DNA from: Algoriphagus yeomjeoni
GTDB lineage: Bacteria > Bacteroidota > Bacteroidia > Cytophagales > Cyclobacteriaceae
Assembly (NCBI RefSeq): GCF_003259505.1
Contig: NZ_QLLK01000005.1
Coordinates: 248,001 to 312,000 of the forward strand
Length of the DNA stretch: 64,000 nt
Reading direction: 5' to 3'
Shown in pieces: positions 4,526-9,270 of the stretch. Position numbers and translations under genes: made by a program. Below the pieces are notes generated by a model that worked only from the letters and a program-made list of their open reading frames with translations, was not told the DNA's origin and did no database searches. Numbering within the stretch: position 1 is the stretch's first letter; each line of letters starts with the position of its first letter.

Positions 4526-4975
4526 TTATTTCTCCTTCTCTTTTAGATTTTGTCTCATTACCAGAGAATTGTTGTCTGGGTCTCGAAAGAAGAAAAACCG
4601 ATCTACGTAGCCTTCGTCTGATATGTTTTCAATTATAAATTCCTCATCAGAAACGGGATCTATAGCTACATTTTTACACTGAAGATATTCCAGGCCCTTT
4701 TTAATGTCTGATACAATAAGGCTTGGGACGGTTCCACTATCCGGTGGCGGGTCAAATGGCTTTTCTATATCAACAAATAACCCAATTGTAGATTTTAGTC
4801 CCTCATCTACATTTAGGTTCATCTGTATATAGGAGTTTTTTTCATAAGACCCACCAGCGTTAATTGTGTACTTGTCTTCTACTTCATAGCCTAGGATGTC
4901 TCTGTAGAACGTGAGAGACTTTACCATATCACTTACTGAGATTTTGGTGACCTGCTGTTCATAGTTGAAAGTCAT
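4526..4975 (-). CDS. VOC (glyoxalase/dioxygenase-fold) family protein
   Basis: A 149-aa protein with the paired beta-alpha-beta-beta-beta layout of the vicinal oxygen chelate superfamily: first module KISVSDMVKSLTFYRDILGYEVEDKY, second module PSLIVSDIKKGLEYLQ ending in DRFFFFRDPDNNSLVM. The RDPDNN turn before the last strand is characteristic. Members bind metals or small molecules (glyoxalases, resistance proteins, dioxygenases, epimerases); a specific activity cannot be assigned. It starts 11 nt after the ferritin-like gene, which itself starts 11 nt after the VioB-like gene, so it is the third gene of that operon and could act on, or protect from, the same product. Confidence 0.83.
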   Translation of the reverse strand: MTFNYEQQVTKISVSDMVKSLTFYRDILGYEVEDKYTINAGGSYEKNSYIQMNLNVDEGLKSTIGLFVDIEKPFDPPPDSGTVPSLIVSDIKKGLEYLQCKNVAIDPVSDEEFIIENISDEGYVDRFFFFRDPDNNSLVMRQNLKEKEK

Positions 4976-4986
4976 AGAAGTTGAGT

Positions 4987-6081
4987 TCAGTGCTTCAGTT
5001 TGGCTCTTTCAGCTGGAGTCAAATCCTCTCCAGTCACAAATTCAAAGCTAGGTCCAGCCATAAATCCTGGATGGTTTGGATCTGGAGTTTTCAAAAGAGT
5101 TAAGGCATATAGCCTAAGTGAAAACATCAAGCCCATAGCTTCATTAATTTGTTCAGGTTCTCCATTGAATGTGCGATGCAGGCTATTGAGCAAATACGTA
5201 TAGGAATAGTTGAAAAACTTGCTGTTCACAAACGCTAAGGAATTCGTCGGATAATCTGACATTTTTGGGTTCGGCCACATATTCGGAATATGGGTACTGT
5301 CCAATGGAACCGGTGCTCCCGAATAGGAGTAGCCATTTTCTGCATTAGGATCTTTGACCAGTTTTTTGCCTTTGACAATCTCCTGAAACCGGTAATAATG
5401 TGCAGGCTCTTCAATTTCAGAATCGTCAGGATTGACAAAAGGATCAGTGCTAGTACCTTCACCTTGATCTACAATGATATCTATTCCTCTAATTGCTGAA
5501 TCTAAATCTGTGATAGGAAATAGCAGATTTGCCGGAAAGAACTTCTCAAAAGTCATTTGATCTTCAATTTTGCCAGTAAAAATTGTTTTCCCAGGACCTG
5601 CAGCTTCTTCCATTCGTTTTAATTTGTCTTTAATTTTTTGATAAAACTGTCCTATGGTCATCGGTTCATCACTGCCAGCATAATTAGCTAATGCCTTGAT
5701 AGATATGGGATGTTCTGGCTCTTCAATGGACATAAAGACATTTTGGACCAAGTCCACCGAGAATTTCTCCAAAGGAACAGTTAGCCCGGAATCAACGCCT
5801 CCCGGTAATGGTCCCGGATAGGTAGGAATAAAATCAGGTTTATTTAAGCAAGGCTTTCCACCAATGGCTGTCAGTAAGTTACTCGCAATCGAAAGGTGCA
5901 GCATTTCTTCTCCGACCACGGAGCCTATGATATTGGAGATTTCATCATTTCCGGTATTGTGCAATGTGAAATTTGCAGTCAAATAGGGTGGGATAGTTGA
6001 ATGCTCGAGTTCTATGGCTGTTTGTACAGCATTTCTTAAGTCCTCGATTGAGTCGATAGTTATTTTTTTAAGTAAGATCAT
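4987..6081 (-). CDS. Ferritin-like domain protein, resembles the C-terminal half of VioB/RebD
   Basis: A 364-aa protein. Helix 1 has AIELEHSTIPPYL (23-34, Glu24/Glu26), helix 2 GEEMLHL with E59-x-x-H62, a later segment MSIEEPEH (116-124), the string DQGEG (205-209) and E225-x-x-H228 before YYRF: the repeated E/ExxH pattern of a di-iron-type four-helix bundle (Pfam Ferritin-like, PF12902). Compared from memory with VioB and RebD, the same order occurs in their C-terminal half: AxELxxMLQYL, EEMIHxLVVNNxLMA, IEQPE, DQGEG/EQGEG and a near-terminal AGPSFE, which is also found here (MAGPSFEF). VioB/RebD couple two tryptophan-derived imines. Here the half is free-standing, 11 nt downstream of a gene resembling the other half. 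The substrate is unknown. Confidence 0.78.
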   Translation of the reverse strand: MILLKKITIDSIEDLRNAVQTAIELEHSTIPPYLTANFTLHNTGNDEISNIIGSVVGEEMLHLSIASNLLTAIGGKPCLNKPDFIPTYPGPLPGGVDSGLTVPLEKFSVDLVQNVFMSIEEPEHPISIKALANYAGSDEPMTIGQFYQKIKDKLKRMEEAAGPGKTIFTGKIEDQMTFEKFFPANLLFPITDLDSAIRGIDIIVDQGEGTSTDPFVNPDDSEIEEPAHYYRFQEIVKGKKLVKDPNAENGYSYSGAPVPLDSTHIPNMWPNPKMSDYPTNSLAFVNSKFFNYSYTYLLNSLHRTFNGEPEQINEAMGLMFSLRLYALTLLKTPDPNHPGFMAGPSFEFVTGEDLTPAERAKLKH

Positions 6082-6092
6082 GAGTGGAGGGA

Positions 6093-7838
6093 TTAAAGTT
6101 TTTTATAAGTGATTTCATCTTTTTTTCCGGTTTGGCTAAGTATGCCATCCAGGTAATTGAGAATCATTTGTTGTTTATCCCTCGAGAGATCTCGCGTCAC
6201 AGGCATGTAGTTTGGATCAGATTTCTCTTTTCCGAAGACAAATTTTAATATCTCAGCATTTTTATCAACTACTTCTTGATCAGCCAGATTGAAAATCCCT
6301 TTTGACATCAATGGATAAAGATTGGCGTATTGCTGCATGGTAGGCTGTAAGTCTGACCAGGTAGGATTGTCGATCTTAGTTTGTTCCACGCTGTCAAAAA
6401 CCAACAGACTGATGAAGTTATTCTGGTTGCAATTGGAAAAATAGGTGTTGCTTAAGTTATAGGCTATTCCGTATACTTGCCCATCTATATAGGATCTAGG
6501 ATTACCTGGATCGCCAGCTTTCACGGGTAAGCTTAGCTTTCCTTCAGCGTCGGTGGTTAAGGTTTCAGGGAAATCAATTGCTTCTACCGGCACACCTATA
6601 ACTGGAGGATTTGGGCCCAACGCATTTATGTTTCTTGCGAATGAAACCGAACGATTTGGTAAAGGCTTGCCTAGTGAAGAAGCGTATAACTGGGCTTCGC
6701 ATGACTCTCCAGGATTCAAGTAAAACACCGGGTAATCGGCGCAGACGTATTCTTTGAATTCTTGAAAAACTGGGGTTGATTGTTTCGTAGATGCGATTAA
6801 GTCAGGATCGTTGGGATTGTTTGGAGTGACTATAACTAGAGGGTATTTTTCTGCTAGTTCAAATTGAGTTTCACTGAGCGGAATGCTACAAACCCCAGAA
6901 GAGCCTAGGTACCAATCAGGCTCATGGTAGGGAATGTTTGCCAGAAATTCGTAGTCTGGATAATTCGTAGCTCCTTTATCCACAGCTAGAATTAGCTTAT
7001 TATGTTGGGCTAAAACCACATGACCTGTAGCTTTATCTACGTCGAACTGGAAGGAGTTACTAAGATCGAGTGAAAGGCATTTTACTTGAGAGTCCAGCAC
7101 AGCTGAGGCGTAGCAGCTAATACTTGAATTAGTAGGGAAAAACTGCCTGCCAACGGTGAAATGCTTAGGTTCAGAAGTAGTGGAAGGACCGATTGAGCCT
7201 ACTATTCTTCCCAATGTGAATTGAGGGGAAGTGTGGTCGCCATTGTATCTATCCACAGTAAACTGGATGGAAAGCTGATCCGGGCTGCACCCAAACAATT
7301 CTTTGAGATACCTGGAATTACTCTCTTCTAAATCCCAAGTTATGTTTTTCAAAATAGACTGGTAAGTGGCGGATGCCGCTCCATCGTGGGTCTGATCCAG
7401 CGACCTGGTAAACCATAAGTTGGTAAATGCGGCAACTTCATAGTCGGCTTTAAATAGATCCTTTTCGCCCGAAACTAGTCTGACAATTAATCCCCAAAGC
7501 GCAGAAACACCCTGCTGTTGGGAGTCTAGATCCACTATTTTACCACAGACCTTGGAGTCAGAATCCATGATAGACATTCCGATGATGGGGTCATCTGCAT
7601 GGTGAAACGTGCTGGTGCCATCCAAGTAGGTAACGCTTTTCACAGTACATCCTAGAAATCTCCAGTTTCCTGTACCATCAGGATTCCACCAGCCATTTGC
7701 GTTCTTTCCTTCCGTGTATTGTTGATACTCAGGTCGGAATGATACATTGTTGAAATGTGTGGGATCATTGTTGACCGTAGAGGGGTCAGCCTGGAATTGC
7801 CCCGAAAAAGTTAATCGGGGTGAGTTTAAATAAGACAT
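6093..7838 (-). CDS. Large protein resembling the N-terminal half of VioB/RebD (chromopyrrolate-synthase-like)
   Basis: A 581-aa protein without signal peptide or membrane helix. The N-terminus MSYLNSPRLTFSGQF matches, from memory, the MSxxDxPRxHFxG opening of VioB and RebD. The C-terminal segment 504-563 (YANLYPLMSKGIFNLAD, then NYMPVTRDLS and ILNYL) matches the VioB/RebD linker of the form YYELxYxFM..VFSLAD...YYMPxTRxLS...FLKYL that leads into their ferritin-like domain. Here the protein stops shortly after this segment and the ferritin-like half follows as a separate gene after 11 nt, so the two are probably a heteromeric version of the fused enzyme. Upstream lie 220 nt of AT-rich sequence in which I find no convincing promoter. 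This is not a frameshift: a stop, an 11-nt spacer and a normal start with a folded N-terminus are present. Confidence 0.72.
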   Translation of the reverse strand: MSYLNSPRLTFSGQFQADPSTVNNDPTHFNNVSFRPEYQQYTEGKNANGWWNPDGTGNWRFLGCTVKSVTYLDGTSTFHHADDPIIGMSIMDSDSKVCGKIVDLDSQQQGVSALWGLIVRLVSGEKDLFKADYEVAAFTNLWFTRSLDQTHDGAASATYQSILKNITWDLEESNSRYLKELFGCSPDQLSIQFTVDRYNGDHTSPQFTLGRIVGSIGPSTTSEPKHFTVGRQFFPTNSSISCYASAVLDSQVKCLSLDLSNSFQFDVDKATGHVVLAQHNKLILAVDKGATNYPDYEFLANIPYHEPDWYLGSSGVCSIPLSETQFELAEKYPLVIVTPNNPNDPDLIASTKQSTPVFQEFKEYVCADYPVFYLNPGESCEAQLYASSLGKPLPNRSVSFARNINALGPNPPVIGVPVEAIDFPETLTTDAEGKLSLPVKAGDPGNPRSYIDGQVYGIAYNLSNTYFSNCNQNNFISLLVFDSVEQTKIDNPTWSDLQPTMQQYANLYPLMSKGIFNLADQEVVDKNAEILKFVFGKEKSDPNYMPVTRDLSRDKQQMILNYLDGILSQTGKKDEITYKKL

Positions 7839-8058: not shown

Positions 8059-9270
8059 TCAGTTGTTAAGTTCTTTCCTAATCCAATTTTTCATTTTGGG
8101 AAATTCCGTTGAGTCGCATAAGTCCATCCATACCAATAATGGTAACCCTTTAAAATCCCCAGATTCATAGGAGTCAATTAGCATCTGAGCATCTCCTTTG
8201 TATCCATCAGGATGAAAGACTACTTCCGGATTAAGATTCAAATACTTCAAAGCAGCATAGGACCAAAGCATCACGCCAATTTCATCATCTTGTCCTGGTG
8301 CTCTATATTCTTTGACATTACCTACAATTGTTTTTCGCTCTTCCTCGGTCATCAACGCGATATGTCCAGCTTCATGGAGTAAATCACCTGGATATAAAAG
8401 TGTTTCCAGGTCATATAATAAAACGCCTTTTTCAATTTTTAGCCCAGGTAGGAAGGTGTTATCAAGTTTTTGAGATTTTGTAGGTATTCCGATTTCCTCT
8501 AGGAAATCAAAGATGATTTTCGTGTTTTTGGTGTCTTCTTTAGATTTAGGCAAAGGTGTTTTCGCTTTAATTCCCCCAAAAGCCCCGAAGCACATATTCT
8601 TATGCAGAATCTCAACCTGGCTAAATCCTACCTGTTTCATCAGGTCTAGCTGGTAATTCATTGATCTTGGCGAATCTTCCTTGGCTACATAAGCCAGTAC
8701 TTTTTCACGATAATCTTTTCCGCCGATTTCTTCTAGGTATTCACCATAGCGCTCCCACGTGTAGGCATTGAGCAAGTCAGTATCTTGCGTAATCAAATCA
8801 GATATCATGAGACATCCTCCTGGTTTGAGCAGCTTAAAAAGTTTAGCAAAGGTTCTTTCCCAGTCTTCATCTTCCCGAAGATGATGCAAAACTGCTCCAG
8901 CTAAAATAATGTCGAAACTTCCTTCAGGAAGCCAAATATCCCGTATGTCTCCTTGGAAAGCTGATACTTTACCTTGAGTTTCAGCTGAAACCCGTTCTAC
9001 TGCCTTCTCAAGCATATTCCCACTTAAATCCACTAATGTGCACGACAGATCAGGAACTTTGCTAAGCATTTTCAATGCATAATTTCCCGCTCCGCAACCC
9101 ACATCAAGAATACTTTCTGCTTTGGGGACGATTCGTTTTGCGGCTTCAGTAATTAGTTCCAGAGAAATCGTAGCATCGATAGTAGCCACTTGGCCTGTAT
9201 CTAGGTTTGAAAATCGTTCTACATCATTATCGAATCTTTCGCGGATTTCTGAGACACTTGACTTATTCAT
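8059..9270 (-). CDS. SAM-dependent methyltransferase fused to a C-terminal HExxH domain
   Basis: A 403-aa cytoplasmic protein in two parts. Residues ~1-235 are a class I methyltransferase: motif I DVGCGAGNY (56-64), acidic DLS after strand 2 (81-83), QGDIRD (106-111), and AGAVLHHL then LLKPGG (148-152). Residues ~248-403 are a separate domain with LLHEAGHIALM, so His299-Glu300-Ala-Gly-His303 has the zinc-peptidase HExxH form, followed by an acidic DDEIGVMLW helix (Glu330 is a candidate third ligand). The joint is a charged linker (PLPKSKEDTKN). I know both parts as separate families but not this combination. It is 51 nt downstream of the anchored VOC gene. The HExxH part could be a degenerate peptidase or only a metal site. 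Confidence 0.8.
   Translation of the reverse strand: MNKSSVSEIRERFDNDVERFSNLDTGQVATIDATISLELITEAAKRIVPKAESILDVGCGAGNYALKMLSKVPDLSCTLVDLSGNMLEKAVERVSAETQGKVSAFQGDIRDIWLPEGSFDIILAGAVLHHLREDEDWERTFAKLFKLLKPGGCLMISDLITQDTDLLNAYTWERYGEYLEEIGGKDYREKVLAYVAKEDSPRSMNYQLDLMKQVGFSQVEILHKNMCFGAFGGIKAKTPLPKSKEDTKNTKIIFDFLEEIGIPTKSQKLDNTFLPGLKIEKGVLLYDLETLLYPGDLLHEAGHIALMTEEERKTIVGNVKEYRAPGQDDEIGVMLWSYAALKYLNLNPEVVFHPDGYKGDAQMLIDSYESGDFKGLPLLVWMDLCDSTEFPKMKNWIRKELNN

Follow-up and report, generated by a model that had tools for sequence, protein, structure and literature searches.

Two adjacent genes of Algoriphagus yeomjeoni, encoding a 581-aa protein (N) and a 364-aa ferritin-like protein (F), are full-length homologs of the two halves of VioB, RebD and StaD at a level of similarity beyond chance. 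They belong to a separate sister family of those enzymes, in which two adjacent genes are the usual arrangement, and we report here a recurrent linkage of this pair to the ebo operon. VioB, RebD and StaD are imine dimer and chromopyrrolic acid synthases, and violacein and rebeccamycin are made by the joining of tryptophans. For the pair and a small VOC-fold protein encoded behind it, we give an even chance to a role as a two-subunit dimetal oxidase acting on an aromatic, amino-acid-derived intermediate of an ebo-linked pathway.

Homology of the two subunits to VioB, RebD and StaD

The window, which is the whole stretch of 64,000 nucleotides that was analyzed, contains an operon of three genes in which N is followed after 11 nt by F and F is followed after another 11 nt by the gene for the VOC-fold protein (VOC). 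Its features are the following:

6093..7838, minus strand: N, 581-aa beta-rich subunit, homolog of the N-terminal half of VioB/RebD/StaD
6183..6209, minus strand: YMPVTRDLS motif of N (residues 544-552), in the helical part at the end that N shares with VioB, RebD and StaD
4987..6081, minus strand: F, 364-aa ferritin-like subunit (PF12902), homolog of the C-terminal half of VioB/RebD/StaD
5398..6006, minus strand: codons of the six likely metal ligands of F (E26, E59, H62, E120, E208, H228)
4526..4975, minus strand: VOC, 149-aa glyoxalase/VOC-fold protein (PF00903), third gene of the operon

The original prediction had located both reading frames correctly, including the 11-nt division between the stop codon of N and the ATG of F, and every motif that it quoted is present: SPRLTFSG, YANLYPLM..FNLAD and YMPVTRDLS in N, and AIELEHS..EEMLH, EEPE, DQGEG and AGPSFE in F. 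F gives a strong match to the Pfam family PF12902, Ferritin-like (E 2.9e-71; 240.3 bits against a gathering cut-off of 22.3), and a Pfam search with N returned no match. Both proteins match the NCBIfam model TIGR04492 (VioB) weakly and at the correct places, which are positions 514-585 of the model for N (E 2.3e-7) and 672-833 for F (E 6.5e-5). The scores of the pair on this model, 20.9 and 29 bits, are far under its equivalog cut-off of 1250, whereas true VioBs score 1700.

The homology was established with profiles built from 69 relatives of N and 66 relatives of F, which were aligned to a real Chromobacterium VioB using hhalign. The N profile aligns over columns 1-571 to VioB 1-578 with 98.3% probability (E 2.1e-14), bearing out the claim that the 581-aa protein resembles the N-terminal half of VioB, and the F profile aligns to the C-terminal half with 98.6% probability (E 5.3e-16). 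Over their whole length, N and F are thus co-linear with the halves of VioB. Homologs of RebD and StaD, drawn as positive controls from Pseudonocardia and Streptomyces loci, score 50-62 bits against the family profiles. The YMPVTRDLS motif of N aligns to VioB and is found in RebD and StaD as well; within it, M545, P546, R549 and D550 are invariant in the 69 relatives. Likewise, the six likely ligand residues of F are invariant in its 66 relatives; together with Y33, Y147, Q206 and Y294, the F of the window has them in common with ten representatives of the family and with VioB, RebD and StaD. Judged from sequence, the residue pattern of F is likely that of a ferritin-type dimetal site.

AlphaFold2 models of both proteins are confident (pLDDT 91.4 for N and 92.2 for F). 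The closest solved structure to F is PDB 3hl1, CC_0557 of Caulobacter, with a TM score of 0.72 by target length. The N model contains an Ig-like domain (residues 361-483) and the conserved helical end; a search of the PDB returned no whole-chain match for it, the Ig-like domain alone being matched, which does not make the rest a new fold. Profile matches of N to designed "Cake" proteins extend over about 26 residues and were set aside as chance matches. A sequence search of the PDB found no VioB structure for superposition, and the structural test of the homology is therefore indirect.

Upstream of the pair, at positions 8059-9270, the window encodes a protein of 403 aa, of which the N-terminal domain is a methyltransferase domain and the C-terminal part has no Pfam match but, by eye, an HEAGH motif. 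Clustering of neighboring genes showed no recurrence of this methyltransferase gene, or of the VOC and DinB genes beyond it, beside other pairs. A defense system and a phage origin were both rejected, as PADLOC returned no match and F had no match in phage records.

A sister family that is mostly encoded by two genes

When GTDB genomes were searched for N alone, without reference to ebo, 80 loci were obtained from at least six phyla (Bacteroidota, Pseudomonadota, Acidobacteriota, Myxococcota, Cyanobacteriota, Actinomycetota and others). When these loci, the window and one further Algoriphagus were classified by gene layout, N and F proved to be split in 59 and fused in 19, and no F was seen in 4. 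The fused genes form one clade on the N tree, corresponding to a single change of state. VioB, RebD and StaD form a clade of their own outside the family, on a long branch whose exact place in this quick tree is unsure. In nearly all split loci the two genes are separated by 0-51 nt or overlap slightly. In the fused members, one of which is an 892-aa Undibacterium protein (L046), 43-51 residues, mostly 43, separate the MPxTR motif and the first F ligand, so that there is no long flexible linker between the halves.

The original prediction, of a VioB/RebD enzyme split in two, therefore holds for the homology and for the clean division, and is to be amended on one point, as the pair comes from a sister family for which a layout of two genes is normal (59 split versus 19 fused). 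It had also proposed a survey of adjacent split pairs, and their conservation, in 59 of the 78 rows with both parts, indicates that the two-gene form is ordinary in the family and that the pair in the window is not a broken gene. The idea of one gene broken through recent mutation or faulty sequencing, which has nothing but the two-reading-frame layout itself in its favor, is already refuted by this share of the rows and by five further Algoriphagus genomes with the same division, and we give it practically no credence.

These results suggest that the dimer synthases of the VioB/RebD type are one branch of a broad enzyme family that is mostly encoded by two genes. Public annotation names its members "hypothetical protein" or "ferritin-like protein", and this superfamily of natural-product enzymes would be larger than these names suggest.

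Further relatives were seen in the course of the survey. Algoriphagus genomes (loci L007-L013 and L019-L025) carry a second N-type paralog of about 600 aa, 29-33% identical and without a ferritin-like partner, which has a GAF/guanylate cyclase gene on one side and, on the other, a gene for a secreted protein of ~490 aa with no Pfam match; in two Algoriphagus genomes, the ebo operon lies 12-13 kb from this paralog. A second kind of pair, in which a ferritin-like paralog of ~460-520 aa adjoins a protein of ~300-330 aa that opens with FxGYFxxRMATDPDPT, is present in Pyrinomonadaceae and Symploca (L054:4337-6806, L060:14143-16448 and L074:7132-9680). In Chromobacterium sphagni and C. subtsugae (L082, L084, L112 and L113), a true VioB and a two-gene relative beside ebo coexist in each genome.

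Linkage to the ebo operon and the VOC protein

The widespread ebo pathway is encoded in bacteria of different phyla, and its operon even reaches the plastid genomes of some algae (PMC5133447). EboC homologs, one of them from Algoriphagus, attach farnesyl groups to quinoline acids in vitro (PMC9235831), and scytonemin precursors need ebo for their movement to the periplasm (PMC6282210); both observations fit an aromatic metabolite.

Proximity to ebo was scored with profiles of EboA, EboC, EboD and EboE, within about 10 kb. By this measure, ebo genes lie near the pair in 28 of the 80 loci, in several phyla and in about nine gene orders, and two more loci on short contigs have an EboB fragment or EboF beside N. 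The order is N-F-VOC-ABCDEF in Flavobacterium, N-F-ABCDEF-VOC in Pedobacter, ebo and then N-F in Photobacterium, and N-F followed by D-E-C-A-B-F in Chromobacterium. The two units are divergent in Undibacterium, Nitrospirillum and Streptomyces and interleaved in Symploca, and on the Aureibacter plasmid pAT1 the RefSeq gene names read N-F-eboABCDEF. In the Symploca metagenome-assembled genome (L074:1-20626), the genes interleaved with ebo are one N-F fusion, a divergent gene for N and three more ferritin-like genes. Adjacency to ebo changes 13 times on the tree, with gains and losses counted alike. Our search of the literature found no link of ebo to ferritin-like or VioB-like proteins in this sense, an absence that is not proof that the link is undescribed.

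Co-occurrence at the level of genomes was assessed in Bacteroidota, where the pair is present in 2 of 392 background genomes and EboC/ebo in 35 of 392. EboC was found in 30 of the 36 Bacteroidota genomes with the pair that were tested, and all six exceptions are metagenome-assembled genomes. Counted by genus and for isolates only, which removes the effect of relatedness only in part, EboC is present in 9 of 9 genera versus 20 of 178. Most ebo operons of Bacteroidota have no pair, and pairs without a clear EboC occur in the family members from Acidobacteriota, most Azospirillum and Sorangium. The genome of the window has a complete, intact eboA-F, but on another contig, so the pair is not linked to ebo at this locus; the distant operon would be its partner. 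All six tested Algoriphagus genomes with the pair have EboC. However, nearly all Algoriphagus have ebo and few have the pair, and co-occurrence inside the genus therefore says little.

In 18 loci, a VOC gene of the same orientation comes directly after the pair. Two Algoriphagus genomes, A. locisalis and G009, encode F and VOC as one fusion protein (identity at 492 of 507 residues), and in two Flavobacteriaceae VOC is joined to the end of EboF. These fusions tie F and EboF to one and the same small protein. By eye, VOC is without the usual H and E metal ligands.

Candidate function, alternatives and comparison with known systems

In the reading that we favor, the operon would encode a two-subunit metal enzyme of the VioB/RebD/StaD superfamily together with a small VOC partner. 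F would form a ferritin-like helical bundle that holds two metals, probably iron, through E26, E59/H62, E120, E208 and H228 and that activates O2 or peroxide. The conserved helical end of N (YPxM..LAD and YMPxTRDLS) may pack on F and help to form the substrate pocket, and the enzyme would then oxidize or oxidatively couple an aromatic, amino-acid-derived intermediate that is made, modified or exported by EboA-F. The fuller form of this proposal, in which N, F and VOC are unrecognized optional components of ebo and constitute a dimetal oxidase that is sister to the tryptophan dimer synthases and acts on an ebo metabolite, falls somewhat short of an even chance in our estimation. If it is true, the ebo products in these bacteria would be oxidized or coupled amino-acid-derived aromatics. 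An ebo-linked enzyme with relatives of known chemistry thus provides a concrete hypothesis for the ebo product and a short list of strains. The original prediction had offered two functions, a different coupled product or a standalone iron enzyme of unknown role. The former comes closer than a split VioB/RebD does, with the ebo operon as its missing context, and the latter loses ground, given that N and VOC accompany F as partners, N as a conserved one, and that the pair is linked to ebo.

The main rival places N-F, as a biosynthetic enzyme, in various pathways of its own, and ebo would have been recruited to its side as an all-purpose module for export or trafficking, as happened beside the scytonemin genes; the link would then be logistic, and the substrate would not be an ebo intermediate. 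The service of ebo in precursor transport during scytonemin synthesis (PMC6282210) agrees with this explanation, as do the many pairs without nearby ebo, the genomes without a clear EboC, and the varied gene orders, which fit repeated recruitment. However, the fusions of VOC to both F and EboF suggest a tighter coupling, and EboC is an active prenyltransferase and thus more than a part of a transporter (PMC9235831). We regard recruitment of an export module as unlikely, though it is the strongest competitor of a dimetal oxidase acting on an ebo metabolite.

VioA and RebO supply the imine to VioB and RebD, and the presence of such an oxidase bears on whether the pair could be a true tryptophan imine dimer synthase, making chromopyrrolic acid or a violacein intermediate from two genes. 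The absence of VioA/RebO from the window, noted in the original prediction, extends to the whole genome: a search with PF01593 found no VioA/RebO-like oxidase, its matches resembling HpnE, CrtI and CrtD, and a fourth match, of 29 positions only, looking by eye like a glutamate synthase subunit. Beside the family pairs there is no VioA/RebO-type oxidase except for one weak match, whereas the positive-control RebD and StaD loci carry a flavin oxidase directly upstream. Although the co-linear homology and the identical ligand set are what a dimer synthase would have, the separate clade, the scores far under the VioB cut-off and the two Chromobacterium genomes that hold both a real VioB and the pair also stand against it, and we consider this function improbable.

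Genes for LodA/GoxA-type CTQ oxidases and a LodB-type flavoprotein lie near N-F in Mycetohabitans, Symploca, a Streptomyces and a member of the Verrucomicrobiales (L139:3498-6559, L071:1963-4171, L090:4473-9049 and L048:3-992, the last with the LodB part alone). Fungal lodA-like genes have been reported close to PF12902 genes (PMC4417212). These neighbors hint that the substrate is an oxidized amino acid. A LodA-type quinoprotein oxidase was rejected as a universal partner, since few clusters have one and the genome of the window has none.

Slightly less probable than a dimer synthase is that F stores or detoxifies iron or peroxide in the manner of other ferritin-like proteins, with N as an accessory. 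Its ferritin-like fold and the Algoriphagus N-type proteins that exist without F would accord with such a role, but the residues that are invariant outside the metal site are common to the biosynthetic enzymes, F is both fused to and paired with N, and the genes around it are those of secondary metabolism.

Compared with known systems, the pair is most like VioB, RebD and StaD, with which it shares the same two domains in the same order, the same conserved motifs and the six likely metal ligands. It differs in that VioB, RebD and StaD are each encoded by one gene for about 1000-1200 aa, whereas this family mostly uses two genes and forms a separate clade; and in that their company consists of bisindole tailoring genes, whereas that of this family consists of ebo genes. 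F has the same fold as CC_0557 (PF12902; 3hl1), and the profile alignment retains the same acidic and histidine motifs. The ebo operon is the neighborhood common to the 28 ebo-linked loci of the family, and none of N, F and VOC is among its six named genes.
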